From: Bacillota bacterium
GTDB lineage: Bacteria; Bacillota; UBA4882; UBA10575
Assembly: GCA_012838955.1 (NCBI GenBank)
Contig: DUOH01000059.1
Span: 1-64,000 of the forward strand
Reading direction: 5' to 3'
Length of the DNA: 64,000 nt
This document shows positions 28,600 to 43,346 of this stretch, one piece after another. Position 1 is the first letter of the stretch, and each line of letters starts with the position of its first letter. A program made the translations under genes and the position numbers. The notes beneath the pieces were generated by a model that saw only the letters and a list, made by a program, of their open reading frames with translations, made no database searches and was not told the DNA's origin.

Positions 28600-28945
28600 A
28601 GCGTGAATAAATGCGTTGAACGGGAAAAAACACTGCATAAACAGGCGGTCCAGAGAGCTGTTGGTTGCTGGGAAACAGCCCGCCTCGGCAGATGTGAACT
28701 CACCCGGGAGCAGTCGCCCGAAACTATAGCCGCAGGTTATAGCAAGTAAGCGCGAACGGGTTTCTCACCGTTATCAGGAGAAGGCATTCAGCATTCGTTC
28801 CAGGAATGAGCATCCATTCCTCATGACTGCTCGATGCCGCAGAGTGGGTTTTGCGCCTGAAGGCGTGAAAATCAAGAAGAGTGGTACCACGGAGGCAGCA
28901 GGCTTTCGTCTCTTGCAGAAATGCGAGGATGAAGGCTTTTTTTAT
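28600..28945 (+). ncRNA. T-box leader RNA
   Basis: A full T-box architecture is readable: the AGAGAG box of stem I (28652-28657), a specifier loop with GAACTC (28696-28701), the stem III block GAACGGGTTTCTCACCGTTA (28754-28773), the T-box core AAGAGTGGTACCACGG (28877-28892), and a terminator (28901-28943) ending in seven T. Uncharged tRNA binding would favour the antiterminator. By the usual register, the codon just before GAAC is TGT (28693-28695, Cys), with ATG one base earlier. The core reads TGGT, which pairs with a tRNA whose discriminator base is A. Confidence 0.9.
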
Positions 28946-36966: not shown

Positions 36967-37346
36967 TTTACCCGGTTTTTTTGGCGCGGATGGAGTAACG
37001 TTCATCATTCATGATTAGCAAATTTGATGATTCACCAGTTTTCCGTTGAATACGATCCAAAACGGCGCTGTTTTCCATAGATATTGAGCGTAACCTAAAT
37101 GGAATTTAACGGTGATCAAGCTTGCCAAGATGCCGTCCGGGAAAGGGTAGCTAACACCGGGAAGAATAGTAGCGATCTTCGCTAAGCAGGGCCAGAGATA
37201 GAACGGTGAAATCGTGGGAGAGAAGATACGTGAAGGAGAAAGCTGAAAAAAGGGCGAAAATATGTTTGTGTCGGACTATAACGTAAGTCAGCTATGGAAT
37301 TAATCATGTGTGTACAGTGGATGCGCGAGTCATCTTGAGGTGTGCG
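36967..37346. other. Gap between the M23 peptidase and the DNA methylase
   Basis: About 380 bases. I see no ORF with a ribosome site, no strong hairpin and no obvious repeat. Confidence 0.5.
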
Positions 37347-38180
37347 ATGAAGAAAAACCTGTCCTTACAACCCTTTCTGAAATGGGCCGGAGGCAAGAGA
37401 CAACTCTTACCGGCTATTAGAAGTTATGTACCTCGGCAATTCTCAGTCTATCATGAGCCTTTTGTGGGGGCGGGAGCGGTGCTTCTCGCTTTACAGCCTA
37501 CCAAAGCCGTGATTAATGATATAAATACGGAGCTGATCAATTGTTACCGGGTGCTCAAGGAGGCGCCGGAAGAGTTAATGCGGGATCTGGCTCAGCATAA
37601 GAACGAGGCCGATTATTATTATGAGATTAGAGATCTGGACCGCAAACCGGAGTTTAAAACCCTTTCTGCAGTGCAAAGGGCCTCACGGATCATATTTTTG
37701 AATAAGACTTGTTATAACGGGTTATTTAGGGTAAATAGCGCCGGACATTTTAATGTGCCTTTCGGCAGGTACAAAAATCCTAAAATCCTTGACCCCCAGG
37801 GGCTGAAGGCAGTAAGCCGCTACCTAAATGAAAATGAAGTGAAGATTTTAAACACCGACTTTGCCGAGGCGGCCAGTAAAGCCCGGAAAGGAGATTTTGT
37901 CTATTTTGATCCGCCCTATGATCCGGTCTCCGATACTTCGTCCTTTACCGGATATAACTTGAGTGGCTTTGGTAAGGACGAGCAGAGAAGGTTGCGGCAG
38001 GTCTTTGCGGATTTAGACAAAAAAGGATGCTTTGTCTTGCTGAGTAATTCTGCTACAGAGTTCATTTACGACTTATATCATGATTACAAGATCGTCGCGG
38101 TCGCGGCCAACCGTCCGATTAACTCCAAAGCCTCCGGCAGAGGAAAGATTAACGAGGTTTTGGTGATGAACTACGGGTGA
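37347..38180 (+). CDS. DNA adenine methylase (Dam / M.DpnII-A type)
   Basis: 277 residues from ATG 37347, with CTTGAGGTG upstream; an earlier in-frame ATG at 37308 has none. Marks of the alpha-class N6-adenine methylases: FLKWAGGKRQLLP (SAM motif I), YHEPFVGAGAVL, and FDPPYDPVSDTSSF (catalytic DPPY). Members usually methylate GATC. A DpnII-like endonuclease would be expected nearby if it were part of a restriction system, but the downstream region holds only fragments, so it is an orphan methylase here. Confidence 0.92.
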   Translation: MKKNLSLQPFLKWAGGKRQLLPAIRSYVPRQFSVYHEPFVGAGAVLLALQPTKAVINDINTELINCYRVLKEAPEELMRDLAQHKNEADYYYEIRDLDRKPEFKTLSAVQRASRIIFLNKTCYNGLFRVNSAGHFNVPFGRYKNPKILDPQGLKAVSRYLNENEVKILNTDFAEAASKARKGDFVYFDPPYDPVSDTSSFTGYNLSGFGKDEQRRLRQVFADLDKKGCFVLLSNSATEFIYDLYHDYKIVAVAANRPINSKASGRGKINEVLVMNYG

Positions 38181-38758: not shown

Positions 38759-38843
38759 CTATTTGATAATTGGGAAAAAAGCGGAGGTAACAGAATCCTT
38801 TTATGAAAGATTTGACTATGGCCATGGGGCCATGGCAACCCTT

Positions 38844-38879
38844 TAGCTAAGCTAAGCTAAGCTTAACTAAGCTTAGCTA
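38844..38879. repeat. AGCTA tandem/palindromic repeat
   Basis: TAGCTAAGCT at the left and AGCTTAGCTA at the right are exact reverse complements, with AAGCTA units between. Just before it, GCCATGG and CCATGGC (38821-38836) form another short dyad. Confidence 0.6.
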
Positions 38880-39004
38880 CTTATCCCAGATGGCTGGAGA
38901 ATACCGCGCAAAGAATAAGTTTTAAATTCCAGGGGCAACTTACAACTTTGGTAAAGACCTCAATCATTTTTGCAAAGTTAATAAGCTAAATTTATTATAT
39001 TCTG

Positions 39005-39700
39005 CTAGGCCTGGGGTTTCAAGCCTAAGGCCGCGTTAACCGGTAGAGAGAAGCAGATTCCCCTACCGCTCGTATTCAACCCGACTTCATGGGTGATCGT
39101 CTCCATAATAGCCTGCTTCTTCTCTTGGGGAGCAAGAACCAAGATCACATCTTTCTCAGGTTGAATGGTTATCCCCAGAAATTTTTCTGCTTCTTTGGAC
39201 CCCAATCCTAGGCCGTGCAGGAGCGTTCCGCCAGTGGCGCCAGCCTTTTTTGCGGCTGTCATCACCAGGTCGGAATGGCCTCTGTTCACAATGGTTATGA
39301 TTAAATCGTAATTTTCCTTTAATTCCATGGCCGGATCCTCCCTTTCCGTAAGTGCATGCTCATTATTCTGTTGGCACAGTTTCCAGAGGGAACTACTGAC
39401 ACCGTTCAGCGAAATGGTAAAAGCAATTCCGGTTCCCGGTTGCTCAAAATTAACCTTCTCACTCAACTGAGTTAAGATCCGGCGCGTCATGGCGCTGTTT
39501 AGGATACTCAGGGCGATTACTTTTTTCGGACTGCCGAAGCCAAGCAGATCATAGATCTCCGATTCGGCAGAACCATAGCCGTGGCATAGTAAATAAACAG
39601 GCAACTTGTTTCGTTTATATAAATCTTTTAAGACATTATCCAGACTGGCATCGACGATTGCAATCAATGCTTCCAAGCGGGTTTCTGCTTTCTCTTCCAT
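39005..39700 (-). CDS. Double PII-like regulatory protein
   Basis: 231 residues consisting of two similar halves (about 8-105 and 130-225), each with the beta-alpha-beta pattern of PII-like ferredoxin folds: one reads HGYGSAESEIYDLLGFG, the other HGLGLGSKEAEKFLG. Each ends with a strand of the type GIAFTISL / GICFSLPV. The T-loop tyrosine and nucleotide residues of classic GlnB are not obvious. It lies directly downstream of the DUF1538 membrane gene on the same strand, 117 bases apart, and probably regulates it. GGAGGGGTCCAC precedes the ATG. Confidence 0.8.
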   Translation of the reverse strand: MEEKAETRLEALIAIVDASLDNVLKDLYKRNKLPVYLLCHGYGSAESEIYDLLGFGSPKKVIALSILNSAMTRRILTQLSEKVNFEQPGTGIAFTISLNGVSSSLWKLCQQNNEHALTEREDPAMELKENYDLIITIVNRGHSDLVMTAAKKAGATGGTLLHGLGLGSKEAEKFLGITIQPEKDVILVLAPQEKKQAIMETITHEVGLNTSGRGICFSLPVNAALGLKPQA

Positions 39701-39817
39701 GTGGACCCCTCCGTTTCCTTTATCTGCAGGCAGATCTCTTGACGGCGTAGCTGAGCTGCTGAAACTGTCTGTTCTTCATTATGAAGTTTAGAATTTTACA
39801 GCTTAGTATTTTATAGC

Positions 39818-41332
39818 TTAGTCTTCCTCTTTATCATATAAAATGATTGAGTCTTCGGCAACAGGGATCATGCTTTCTTTCTCGGCTTTCTTCGTTTTTA
39901 TTCTGTAGATCAACCCAAAACACTGGATGGTAAGGACCGGGGTCATCGCCACCAAGGCTACAATACCAAAGGCATCCGTGAAGATGTTACCGCCCATGGT
40001 TTCACAGGCGCCAATGGCAAAGGGAAGCAAGAAAGTCGCGGCCAAGGGCCCGGATGCTACAGCGCCGGAGTCAAAAGCAATCGAAGTGAAGAGGTGCGGC
40101 ACAAATAGCGCTAGGATCAGCGCAAGTGTGTATCCAGGAATTACCAAATAGAGCAAGGAAATCCCGGTAATGATCCGTAGCATGGACAAGCCGACGGAGA
40201 CGGCCACGCCGATGGAAAGACCGATTCCCATGGTTCGAGCGGGAATAGCTCCCTCCGTTATCTCTTCAACCTGTTCTTTTAGGACGAAAACCGCAGGTTC
40301 CGCTGCCACGACGAAATATCCGGCGATCGTTCCCACCAGAACTAAAACCCAAAGTGGCGCATACTCTACCAATAAGGACCCCAACTGATACCCGGCTGGC
40401 ATAAAACCCACATTCGCACTGGTTAGAAAGAGAACCAGGCCCAGGAAAGTATAGATCGTGCCGATTAAGATTTTAAGAAGCTTTTTTCTTCTGAGATGCA
40501 GAACGCTTAGTTGAAAGACGATAAACAGCAGGAACATCGGGGAAAGAGCAATAGCCACCTGTTTAATATACTCGGGGATATTGGCGAGATAGAGGCGGAA
40601 GACATGGGTCAGGGAGGGCAGGTGTGGAATGGAGAGCGCGCTTCCGCCACTGGGTTGAAAGAATAAGCCCAAAATCAACATGGCAAGAATGGGCCCGATC
40701 AAACAGAAGGAGATCAAGCCAAAGCTGTCCTCCTCTGTGGTCTTGTCGCCCCGCACCGCAGCCAAACCAAGCCCCAGGGCCATGATGAACGGTACCATAA
40801 TTGGGCCCGTAGTCACTGCTCCGGATTCATAAGCGATGGACAGGAAGGACTTACCGGTGAAACCCGACAAGGCAAAGGCCGATAAATAGCAGCCGGTCAG
40901 GATCCGGGAGAGCGGGATCTGAAACAGGATGCGGAGAAAGGCCCCGACCAGCGCGATACCTACGCCTATCGAGACTGTAAGAATAATGACTGAATCGGGA
41001 ATCCCGTTGATCTGTCCGGCTAAAACCAGTAAATCCGGTTCGGCGATGCTGATAATAACACCGATGATAAAAGTCAGCGAAACAATCAACAGTAGGTTTT
41101 TACTCTTTACCAGCGCGGATCCGATATATTCTCCGATGGGCATCAAGGAGATATCTACCCCAAGATTAAACAGGGTGATCCCTAGCGTCAACCCTAAAGC
41201 GCTAAACAGAAAGAGAAACATACTATAAAGCGGCATCGGTGCAACTGTAAAATTTAATAGCGTCACAATAACAACGATAGGGAATACAGATAATACAGAT
41301 TCTTTGCATTTGGCCCATAGGAGCTTGGTCAT
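39818..41332 (-). CDS. DUF1538 membrane protein, two repeats
   Basis: 504 residues with about twelve membrane segments arranged as two DUF1538 halves (about 10-240 and 255-490). Each half contains a copy of a repeated block: LGITLFNLGVDISLMPIGEYIG against FLTSANVGFMPAGYQLGSL, and IAYESGAVTTGPIMVPF against IAFDSGAVASGPLAATF. The S-G-A-V-x-x-G-P motif in a membrane stretch suggests a re-entrant pore. DUF1538 proteins are uncharacterised, presumed transporters. The adjacent double PII-like protein suggests control by metabolite binding. GAGAGGACAGGTGAAGCA precedes the start. Confidence 0.85.
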   Translation of the reverse strand: MTKLLWAKCKESVLSVFPIVVIVTLLNFTVAPMPLYSMFLFLFSALGLTLGITLFNLGVDISLMPIGEYIGSALVKSKNLLLIVSLTFIIGVIISIAEPDLLVLAGQINGIPDSVIILTVSIGVGIALVGAFLRILFQIPLSRILTGCYLSAFALSGFTGKSFLSIAYESGAVTTGPIMVPFIMALGLGLAAVRGDKTTEEDSFGLISFCLIGPILAMLILGLFFQPSGGSALSIPHLPSLTHVFRLYLANIPEYIKQVAIALSPMFLLFIVFQLSVLHLRRKKLLKILIGTIYTFLGLVLFLTSANVGFMPAGYQLGSLLVEYAPLWVLVLVGTIAGYFVVAAEPAVFVLKEQVEEITEGAIPARTMGIGLSIGVAVSVGLSMLRIITGISLLYLVIPGYTLALILALFVPHLFTSIAFDSGAVASGPLAATFLLPFAIGACETMGGNIFTDAFGIVALVAMTPVLTIQCFGLIYRIKTKKAEKESMIPVAEDSIILYDKEED

Positions 41333-41728: not shown

Positions 41729-41858
41729 AAGAACCTTCGGGGCAGGGTGAAATTCCTGACCGGCGGTAACGCTTAATCGAGCGAAGCCCGCGAGCCATGT
41801 GGCTGATCCGGTGTGATTCCGGAGCCGACAGTATAGTCTGGATGGGAGAAGGTGAGTA
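41729..41858 (+). ncRNA. FMN riboswitch (RFN element)
   Basis: The conserved parts are all readable in order: CTTCGGGGCAGGGTGAAATT (41735-41754), CCTGACCGGCGGTAA, AGCCCGCGAGCC, GATCCGGTGTGATTCCGG, CCGACAGTATAGTCTGGATG and GGGAGAAGG. It is followed at 41911 by a terminator, so FMN should cause early termination. It precedes ribD-ribE-ribBA-ribH. Confidence 0.97.
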
Positions 41859-41941: not shown

Positions 41942-42101
41942 TTATCCGACCCAGTGGAGAACCCCGGCTTGCTCCAGAAGGATCAGGTTCTTCTTCCCTA
42001 ATCAATAAAGACTGTAAAGGTTGTTTGCGCCGAAACGGGCCTGCGGCAAATGACATATTAGTGCTCTTGGGTGAATGCGTTTTGTAATGGAGGGGGTAAA
42101 G

Positions 42102-43346
42102 GTGCGGGCTGAAAACCAATTCAGTGAGTTTGATCGAAAAATGATGAGAAAAGCGTTTTGTTTGGCCAGGAAAGGGTTGGGGCGGACCTTTCCCAACCCG
42201 GCGGTGGGAGCGGTACTCGTCCGGGAGGGAAAGATTGTAGGCGCTGGTTATCATGGTGTCGCCGGGGGCGCCCACGCCGAAGCCGTGGCCCTGGCCGCCG
42301 CCGGAGAAGCCGCCAGAGGAAGCACACTCTATGTTACTCTGGAGCCTTGCTGTCATCATGGTCGGACTCCTCCCTGTTCGGCGGCGCTGATCAAAGCTGG
42401 TGTCATTCGGGTGGTGGCTGCGATGCCTGATCCTAATCCGCAGGTTGCCGGAGACGGGCTGAAAACTCTGGCTGAGGCGGGGGTGCGGGTGGAGTGTGGT
42501 CTATTCGCGGAGGAAGCCCGGAGAATGAATGAGGCCTTTGTCAAATATATCACCACTGGCCGTCCGTTCATTACCCTCAAGGCCGCCGTCAGTCTGGACG
42601 GGAAAATCGCCGCACATACCGGTGACAGCAGATGGATTACGGGAATTACCGCCAGAAGGTATGTTCATCTCCTGCGTTCCTGGGCGGCTGGGGTGATGGT
42701 GGGGGTGGGCACTGTCTTGAAGGATGATCCCAATTTAACCTGCCGCTGGCGAGCGCCGACGCGTCAGAAAGAAAGCCCTATTGCGGGCGGGATGGTCAAG
42801 CCCTTCGAATTTAAGGAGACATATACCGGAGGGGGAGGTATTCTTCAGCCTGTACGCATAGTGGTTGACAGTAAGGGGCGGACGCCGCTTCACGCCAAAG
42901 TCTTGAAGAACCAGGAAACGGCGCCGACCTTGATTGCTGTGACTGAAGAGGCGTCCGGGGAAAACATTGAACGCCTCCGGCAAACCGGCGCCAGAGTTTT
43001 AATTATGCCATCCGTTGGCGGACGGGTGAATCTGTCCGCATTAGCGCTCCGTCTGGCGGAGGAAGGGATTACCTCCATTCTCTTGGAGGGAGGGGGAACC
43101 TTGAATTCCGCCGCTGTCCAAGCCGGGATCGTTGATAAACTGCAGATTTTTATCGCCCCGAAGTTGATAGGAGGAGCGTCGGCGCCAACCTTTTTGGAAG
43201 GGGCGGGCGTGGAAAGGATGAAAGACGCTTGGCAGGTGACTACGACCAGTATCCGTCGTATTGGCGAAGACTTTTTAGTCACCGCTTATTTAAAGAACAC
43301 GTCAGTTTTTTGTAATTTCAGTGGTGGGGGCATCAAGGAGGTGTGA
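42102..43346 (+). CDS. ribD: Riboflavin biosynthesis deaminase/reductase RibD
   Basis: 414 residues from GTG 42102 (GGAGGGGGTAAAG upstream); ATGs at 42075 and 42087 are in frame but less well placed. The N-terminal deaminase has the zinc site HAEAVAL and PCCHHGRTPPC; the C-terminal reductase has AVSLDGKIAAHTGDSRWITG and LLEGGGTLNSAAV. It deaminates the pyrimidine and reduces its ribose, steps two and three of the pathway. An extra loop of about 35 residues (after DPNLTCRW) lies before the VRIVVDS strand, somewhat longer than usual. Confidence 0.95.
   Translation: MRAENQFSEFDRKMMRKAFCLARKGLGRTFPNPAVGAVLVREGKIVGAGYHGVAGGAHAEAVALAAAGEAARGSTLYVTLEPCCHHGRTPPCSAALIKAGVIRVVAAMPDPNPQVAGDGLKTLAEAGVRVECGLFAEEARRMNEAFVKYITTGRPFITLKAAVSLDGKIAAHTGDSRWITGITARRYVHLLRSWAAGVMVGVGTVLKDDPNLTCRWRAPTRQKESPIAGGMVKPFEFKETYTGGGGILQPVRIVVDSKGRTPLHAKVLKNQETAPTLIAVTEEASGENIERLRQTGARVLIMPSVGGRVNLSALALRLAEEGITSILLEGGGTLNSAAVQAGIVDKLQIFIAPKLIGGASAPTFLEGAGVERMKDAWQVTTTSIRRIGEDFLVTAYLKNTSVFCNFSGGGIKEV

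Follow-up and report, generated by a model that had tools for sequence, protein, structure and literature searches.

The window analysed here, a 64,000-nucleotide (nt) stretch of a Bacillota bacterium genome (contig DUOH01000059.1, positions 1 to 64,000, forward strand), carries on its minus strand a gene for a membrane protein of the DUF1538 family and, downstream of it, a gene for a PII-like protein. These two genes probably constitute a functional unit, in which a DUF1538 cation/proton antiporter would be gated by a dedicated PII-like regulator that does not serve nitrogen control; the transport activity, the binding, the ligand and the direction of regulation we infer. The pair is more than a chance arrangement, in that it recurs at nearly all of the DUF1538 loci examined. 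Its layout, in positions of the window, is as follows.

39818..41332, minus strand: fused (UmpA-UmpB type) DUF1538 membrane protein, predicted cation/H+ antiporter, 504 amino acids (aa); from PF07556 and an AlphaFold2 (AF2) model.
39701..39817, minus strand: intergenic stretch of 117 nt between the co-directional genes; from the sequence.
39005..39700, minus strand: double PII-like protein, 231 aa; from PF00543 on its C half, an AF2 model and fold matches.

No terminator-like site was found on the minus strand within 39701..39817. Weak promoter-like matches occur just ahead of the PII gene (39861-39833 and 39837-39808), so that this gene might additionally be transcribed from a promoter of its own. 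A search of the genome retrieved one DUF1538 gene and three PII-family genes.

The linkage was surveyed in 199 genomes of the phylum of the window (Bacillota), at least 67 of which harbour DUF1538. The regions covered came from 65 DUF1538 genomes, with the window as a 66th, whilst genome G107 was covered at its PII gene (L195); a contig-edge fragment in G138 and a fragment in G083:C326 were left out. With the window excluded, a PII-like open reading frame (ORF) was located directly downstream and on the same strand in 74 of the 79 DUF1538 clusters. The other five comprised a cluster with a broken second DUF1538 gene and the PII gene 697 nt off (L046), a cluster at a contig end (L072), a lone 230-aa DUF1538 unit with a PII gene on its other side only (L106), and a 100-aa DUF1538 fragment (L051, 6342-6644) and a degraded DUF1538 gene (L109, 6073-6682), both without an adjacent PII gene. 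Gene packing was tight, with gaps of at most 12 nt in 64 of 75 cases and an overlap in 50 of 75, when starts were set mechanically and the 697-nt gap was included. A second set of 80 named loci represents the best 80 of 565 related loci, hence all are fused and near the window; a PII gene followed directly downstream in 79, the remaining locus (L139) ending at a contig edge.

Searches from other directions returned the same association. A DUF1538 query against 72,556 plasmids matched nine records, from five species of Bacillota and two of Alphaproteobacteria (two species with two strains each), three of which were inspected as annotated regions. When the DUF1538-linked PII of Methylocystis was used as a query, the same nine records were retrieved, with the PII close to DUF1538 on the same strand; the PII of the window itself found two of the nine. 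A reverse profile search with DUF1538-linked PII domains yielded 82 loci at E <= 1e-12 (counted from the listing), of which 77 adjoin a DUF1538 match, G153:C87 lying at a contig start with its DUF1538 gene on the far side. An earlier note on this DNA had staked its proposal of a PII protein docking on a transporter upon the linkage being conserved in other genomes, and this was indeed found (74/79 clusters, 79/80 named loci, 9/9 plasmid records). Single-chain fusions of the two were absent among ORFs carrying either domain. No description of the linkage was found in the open-licence literature, represented mostly by listings and passages, and neither PII nor P-II occurs in the main text of four papers on UmpAB antiporters (PMC5484666, PMC5996927, PMC10030654, PMC12093952). 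The pairing would hence be an apparently undescribed control system, for which the clustering of PII-NG proteins with CzcABC is a known precedent.

The 504-aa protein matched PF07556 in two stretches (E 9.9e-124; 411 bits against a gathering threshold of 22.6). The internal duplication that had been read from it in the earlier note, with an S-G-A-V-x-x-G-P motif in both halves (residues 170-177 and 422-429), was confirmed by aligning the halves with each other (BLASTP E 6e-21, 26% over 235 aa), and no internal repeat within one half was detected by profile comparison of sub-segments. The parts of the protein are listed below.

40649..41287, minus strand: N half, residues 16-228; falls with split-pair first genes (the UmpA position); predicted N-in/C-out.
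41036..41041, minus strand: E98-P99 at a helix break of the N half, both residues invariant in A4; from the sequence and the AF2 model.
40802..40825, minus strand: SGAVTTGP of the N half (residues 170-177), second helix break; from the sequence and the AF2 model.
39896..40546, minus strand: C half, residues 263-479; falls with split-pair second genes (the UmpB position); predicted N-out/C-in.
40295..40300, minus strand: E345-P346 at a helix break of the C half, both residues invariant in A4; from the sequence and the AF2 model.
40046..40069, minus strand: SGAVASGP of the C half (residues 422-429), second helix break; from the sequence and the AF2 model.

UmpA and UmpB of Halomonas zhaodongensis, a pair of homologous proteins with seven transmembrane (TM) segments, are described in the available part of PMC5484666 as a DUF1538 pair that works as a heterodimer in Na+(Li+,K+)/H+ antiport, both subunits being needed for full antiport activity. 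The statement in the earlier note that DUF1538 has no assigned substrate is thus outdated. The phylogeny of the family was inferred from 156 domains, belonging to 48 fused proteins (the phylum sample and the window supplied 33, and 15 came from named loci picked at random), 29 split pairs and the Methylocystis pair. The midpoint of the tree separated fused N halves and split first genes from fused C halves and split second genes, 78 on either side and without exception; the fused protein is therefore a fusion of UmpA with UmpB, whose duplication predates the fusion, the halves being ancient paralogues by this phylogeny. The protein of the window scored 151.6 bits against a cut-off of 490 and 110.9 against 500 with the UmpA and UmpB equivalog models (NF041627 and NF041628), and its halves, scored separately, fell lower still. 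As these scores are far under the NCBI cut-offs, the protein is a relative of UmpAB and not an equivalog.

The AF2 model of the DUF1538 protein (50 sequences; predicted local distance difference test score, pLDDT, 87.8; predicted TM-score, pTM, 0.86) revealed, on manual reading of its helix list, seven TM-like elements per half. Two elements in each half are broken, one at the E-P pair (98-99 and 345-346) and one at the SGAVxxGP motif. Loops rich in lysine and arginine lie on the cytosolic side of membrane proteins, according to the positive-inside rule. These residues were more abundant in the even loops of all 48 N halves and all 30 split first genes, and in the odd loops of all 48 C halves and 27 of 30 split second genes (two contrary, one tied). 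Under that rule, the opposite bias indicates that the two homologous seven-TM halves are probably inserted antiparallel, related by a pseudo-two-fold axis that runs parallel to the membrane, and the broken helices together with such an arrangement would fit an alternating-access antiporter. The C-terminal tail is rich in lysine and arginine in UmpB-like and fused proteins, and UmpA-like proteins stop near the end of the profile.

No known fold was recognised for DUF1538 among solved structures by Foldseek, Z-score comparison or PDB sequence search. The best Foldseek match was CLC-ec1 (E 7e-3), the best Z 6.0, and the exchanger NCX_Mj (3v5u) was within the background for helical proteins (Z 5.0, root-mean-square deviation 5.3, 184 residues aligned); no PDB sequence matched at E up to 1. 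Five loci (L052, L070, L081, L101 and L107) encode a single DUF1538 protein of 231-265 aa and have one PII gene behind it; in the tree these proteins form a separate clade (support 0.93) that lies outside the UmpA-type group. Their even/odd counts of lysine plus arginine (5/3, 4/3, 5/2, 3/5 and 5/2) are mostly of weak bias, and they are perhaps dual-topology homodimers, which is a guess because two of the five are as biased as the average split first gene.

The neighbouring protein had been described in the earlier note as two repeats of a PII-like fold, which holds, with the qualification that the first repeat is degenerate.

39386..39682, minus strand: PII-like N domain, residues 7-105, degenerate; from profile comparison and a model fold match.
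39011..39316, minus strand: PII-like C domain, residues 129-230; from PF00543 and a model fold match.

The Pfam P-II model (PF00543) detected the C half alone (residues 133-224, E 7e-8, 33.2 bits against a gathering threshold of 25), and direct BLASTP of the N against the C half gave E 0.001 over 57 aa. Profiles of the two halves matched each other at 99.8% probability, the N halves having been selected by the C-half profile. The AF2 model (63 sequences, pLDDT 86.3, pTM 0.81) contains two PII domains, both of which match PII-family structures at Z of about 10-11, with a best Foldseek E of 1.3e-5. Among solved sequences, the nearest is 9p1x (E 3.5e-8), a 'P-II family nitrogen regulatory protein'.

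The T-, B- and C-loop residues of classical PII proteins have known functional roles. Classical PIIs of the phylum, taken from the strongest P-II matches and partly via the pattern GxxG[DN]G, have the consensus QKG...YRG, TGxxGDGKIFV and RTGE. That of the DUF1538-linked PIIs reads GGT, G-x-GTG-x-HE, EPEKE and PG-x-GI in most groups, with a shorter T-loop and without the B-loop lysine, the C-loop arginines or the T-loop tyrosine. The GlnB/GlnK signature (T-loop YRG, B-loop TGxxGDGK, C-loop RTGE) is found neither in this consensus nor in the halves of the window protein, whilst a G-x-G at the T-loop base and the B-loop glycines are kept; the N domains of the fused lineage are the most degenerate group. 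Since the classical residues are lost, a different ligand is expected, possibly an adenine nucleotide held by fewer phosphate contacts. A PII tree of 211 domains, with 22 of the 80 named loci included and 16 classical PIIs from this phylum serving as the root, separated the DUF1538-linked PIIs from the classical ones. Ordinary nitrogen regulation, by a GlnK that happens to stand beside a membrane protein, is hardly credible on this evidence (the tree, and the missing lysine, RTGE and tyrosine in both consensus and window protein), even if relatives are auto-annotated 'P-II family nitrogen regulator' and Pfam P-II scores above its cut-off. Classical PII domains also lie within ORFs of 543-620 aa in G192:C40, G053:C13, G195:C21 and G142:C15, which are perhaps Amt-PII fusions.

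Domain numbers of the two partners match in the fused lineage. Every fused DUF1538 with room downstream was followed by two PII domains; this held for 34 of 34 in the phylum sample (33 doubles and one pair of singles) and for 79 of 79 named loci (74 doubles and five pairs of singles). Two single PII genes follow a fused DUF1538 in, for instance, Christensenella intestinihominis (L159) and Mobilisporobacter senegalensis (L120). Among 31 split clusters with a PII, by a script call that includes one fused gene with a frame break (L044), 16 had one single, four had two singles and 11 had a double. In nine clusters just one DUF1538 ORF was visible (L046, cases at contig edges and all five single-gene loci); six of these had one PII and three had a double. 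The PII duplication of the split lineage lies within a clade of support 0.97 and that of the fused lineage is marked by an N-domain clade of support 0.987, the DUF1538-linked group as a whole having support of 0.25. A separate origin of the duplication in each lineage is suggestive only, because the domains span no more than about 100 aa and support is weak at several of the deep nodes.

From the matching symmetry, the earlier note had suggested that one PII pair docks on one transporter. The 2:2 domain count of the fused form stands; the two-fold docking does not follow from it, since antiparallel halves would present two non-equivalent faces to the cytosol. It is further weakened because 16 of the 31 split systems with a PII have one PII domain, and because PII proteins are generally trimers, as stated in the available text of PMC6516651. 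A relationship between PII and transporter is nevertheless the best reading, on the conserved linkage and the doubling of both partners.

Both of the other PII-family genes of this genome lie in L036, where each has a Na_H_Exchanger gene (E 1.7e-34 and 3.1e-33) directly downstream. L036 (5612-9400) thus holds two tandem copies of a PII-like gene with a Na+/H+ exchanger. Among the matches listed, all 13 second-tier non-classical PII-likes (E down to 1.2e-5) adjoin an exchanger-like ORF by phmmer, where matches also in the strong P-II list, and G040:C31:283 at a contig start, were left out of the set; six of six such neighbours run against Pfam matched PF00999. In a comparison confined to non-classical PIIs, the two closest groups adjoin two unrelated antiporter families. 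Sixteen exchanger-linked PII domains (that of L053 being presumed) form a clade with support of 0.946, whilst L196 falls among the DUF1538-linked domains.

A candidate for the contact between the two proteins was identified in the C-terminal tail of the DUF1538 protein.

39839..39856, minus strand: EDSIIL, acidic-x-Ile-Ile, residues 493-498, in the low-confidence C-terminal tail; candidate docking peptide, from the sequence, the AF2 model and motif counts.

Fused proteins of the clade of the window have a variable, low-confidence tail past the last helix, in which a single motif recurs: acidic-(0-2 residues)-[IV][IV]. With L139, L072 and L105 left out of the counts, the motif was present in 75 of 79 tails of the named set (shuffled mean 15.3, maximum 27) and in 14 of 34 of the phylum set, window included (shuffled mean 4.7, maximum 11); restricted to Ile-Ile, these became 72 of 79 and 12 of 34. 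An exact [IV][IV][DE][LIVF] terminus was found in 45 of the 79 named-set proteins, and the tail of L151 holds five copies of [DE]II. The motif tracks a clade of PII C domains (support 0.98), being associated with 33 of 35 domains with tail data, versus 1 of 20 in the other clade; with PII N domains the figures were 33 of 36 versus 1 of 20. The start of the tail is positively charged, which would place the tail in the cytosol. An acidic-Ile-Ile tail is therefore a candidate for docking the PII-like protein in the clade of the window, with other clades having to use other surfaces.

Taken with these features, the proposed mechanism would be that a DUF1538 cation/proton antiporter, a covalent version of UmpA-UmpB with antiparallel seven-TM halves, is paired with a dedicated cytosolic PII-like regulator. 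This non-classical PII, doubled into two diverged domains, would bind a small molecule, for which an adenine nucleotide or a related messenger is the likeliest choice, and nitrogen or 2-oxoglutarate signalling would not be its input. The ligand would alter how the PII touches the antiporter on its cytosolic face, probably via the acidic-Ile-Ile tail in this clade, and the altered contact would gate the exchange of Na+ or K+ for H+.

Several observations weigh against this mechanism or parts of it. Carrying the Halomonas substrate over to the window protein is uncertain, given the low equivalog scores. UmpAB was active in Escherichia coli without a cloned PII partner (PMC5484666, in the part available, where the cloned umpAB fragment is described with no ORF after umpB), and PII is hence unnecessary for basal antiport. 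According to the accessible passages of a review, PII-regulated transporters appear restricted to trimers (PMC10710835), and UmpAB has been reported to be a heterodimer. Five strong PII loci were not shown beside DUF1538, namely L195 at a contig edge and four elsewhere, in which a DUF1538-type PII-like gene lies next to PntB (L194, 4703-5050), a Na+/H+ exchanger with TrkA_C (L196, 1792-2106), an ArsP permease (L197, 4783-5127) or an aldehyde ferredoxin oxidoreductase (L198, 4453-4899). As for the tail, its pattern was framed after the tails had been inspected, and a narrower acidic-x-[IVLM]-I form was present in 47 of 79 named-set and 13 of 34 phylum-set tails. The second PII C-domain clade has support of just 0.32, and the DUF1538 tree does not bring the motif-bearing proteins together as a separate clade. 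In split pairs (tails of 25) the motif was not evident, and most other fused proteins lack it; as these also have PII partners, it cannot be a general docking site.

Other explanations of the pair were weighed against gating of an antiporter. The one that survives best, though we consider it unlikely, is that DUF1538 proteins of this clade move another solute (e.g. ammonium, bicarbonate or an organic ion coupled to cations) under a nutrient-type regulator like GlnK with AmtB or SbtB with SbtA. It accords with the equivalog scores given above and with the transporters named in the available text of PMC10710835, which take up ammonium, nitrate, urea or bicarbonate. However, the PII proteins most closely related outside the family lie beside Na+/H+ exchangers, which belong to an unrelated antiporter family, the classical nitrogen-sensing residues are gone from the consensus, and the sole DUF1538 pair for which a description of activity was found is a Na+(Li+,K+)/H+ antiporter. 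Somewhat less likely again is that the PII-like protein is a partner in assembly, stability or metal binding, similar to CutA, rather than a ligand-switched gate: CutA structures match about equally well (Z 10.1-10.5), the T-loop is short, and the tight gene packing fits co-translational assembly. The retained glycines of the T-loop base and B-loop, as in a ligand cleft, speak for a gate instead, as do the cases of PMC10710835 (in the part available), where transporter-adjacent PIIs act as regulators. Co-transcription without contact, with the PII-like protein sensing the same stress and acting on other targets, appears improbable. The four of 82 strong relatives away from DUF1538 and the weak promoter-like matches would allow it, yet the linkage is reciprocal and nearly exclusive in the phylum sample and extends to plasmids of Bacillota and Alphaproteobacteria, and domain numbers match in the fused clade, with an apparent double origin of the PII duplication.

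Beyond the pair itself, a wider scenario is tentative and falls a little short of even likelihood: a branch of PII-like proteins may be devoted to monovalent cation/H+ antiporters, comprising the DUF1538/UmpAB group and a sister clade of Na_H_Exchanger (cation/proton antiporter, CPA-type) proteins, with occasional partner exchange (L196). The antiporter would have passed from a single gene to an antiparallel pair and then to a fused protein, the PII would have doubled at least twice, and docking through a tail peptide would belong to the clade of the window.

Comparison with known systems places the pair nearest to UmpAB, with which it shares DUF1538 and the correspondence of fused N and C halves to the first and second genes of split pairs; unlike UmpAB, it has one chain, scores far below the equivalog cut-offs and is followed by a PII-like gene. 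PII control is known for AmtB, NrtABCD, UrtABCDE and SbtA (PMC10710835, available in part). In GlnK-AmtB, likewise, a PII-fold gene adjoins a membrane transporter, which in the window is presumably regulated, but the transporter family is another one, the window PII is devoid of the classical T-, B- and C-loop residues, and no nitrogen link was found. SbtB-SbtA also joins a non-classical PII fold (SbtB Z up to 10.6) to a cation-coupled secondary transporter; both SbtA and SbtB are trimers (PMC10710835, in the same passages), in contrast to a doubled PII with a predicted antiparallel two-half antiporter, and the neighbour in the window matched PF07556 only, in Pfam at E up to 10, so that an SbtB-type gene pair was not found. 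PII-NG proteins are non-classical and cluster with CzcABC proton/cation antiporters (Sant'Anna 2009, as cited in the available part of PMC7726332); they belong to a proteobacterial clade and to metal efflux, whereas DUF1538 and Na_H_Exchanger families here are of monovalent-cation type. PstA/DarA (PstA Z 10.1) and CutA (Z of about 10) resemble the window protein in fold, the level at which they were compared. PstA/DarA is connected through cyclic di-AMP to K+ and osmotic physiology, according to partial sources, and differs in that the DUF1538-linked PII group has Alphaproteobacterial members. DUF1538 appears in a table of pH-adaptation genes (PMC13255231), and UmpAB homologues have been tied to salt adaptation in cable bacteria (PMC10030654, PMC12093952), each source being available in part; these mentions are consistent with an ion or pH role.

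The possibility of riboswitch control was rejected. In 17 sources scanned with Rfam (15 DUF1538 loci plus L036 and the window, out of about 150 loci), no DUF1538-adjacent riboswitch reached the gathering threshold, other than a flavin mononucleotide (FMN) riboswitch of divergent rib genes in the window. This lies at 41729-41857 (+), upstream of a ribD-like ORF (42075-43346), and is divergent from the DUF1538 gene. A T-box leader is situated at 28607-28916 (+), and in L120 the other strand carries a T-box roughly 340 nt upstream of the DUF1538 ORF. At lower coordinates than the PII gene, the window encodes a D12-class DNA adenine methyltransferase (37308-38180, +), followed by a small hydrophobic ORF and a AGCTAAGCT-type repeat stretch (~38826-38885). 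Outside the window, the genome carries an OLE RNA (G000:C35:44364-44994, +), which is present in 148 of the 199 phylum-sample genomes.

Antiporters of Na+, K+ and H+ set cytoplasmic pH and ion balance, and the pair offers a small two-protein system open to direct testing. If the proposed relationship is true, PII control would reach beyond nutrient uptake into the homeostasis of ions and pH, and the annotation 'P-II family nitrogen regulator' would be misleading for the DUF1538-linked group. An antiparallel arrangement of UmpA and UmpB, if true, would explain the need for both subunits, and such a unit under PII control would challenge or refine the view that PII acts on trimeric transporters only; were the wider scenario of an antiporter-devoted branch to hold, that view would be broken.

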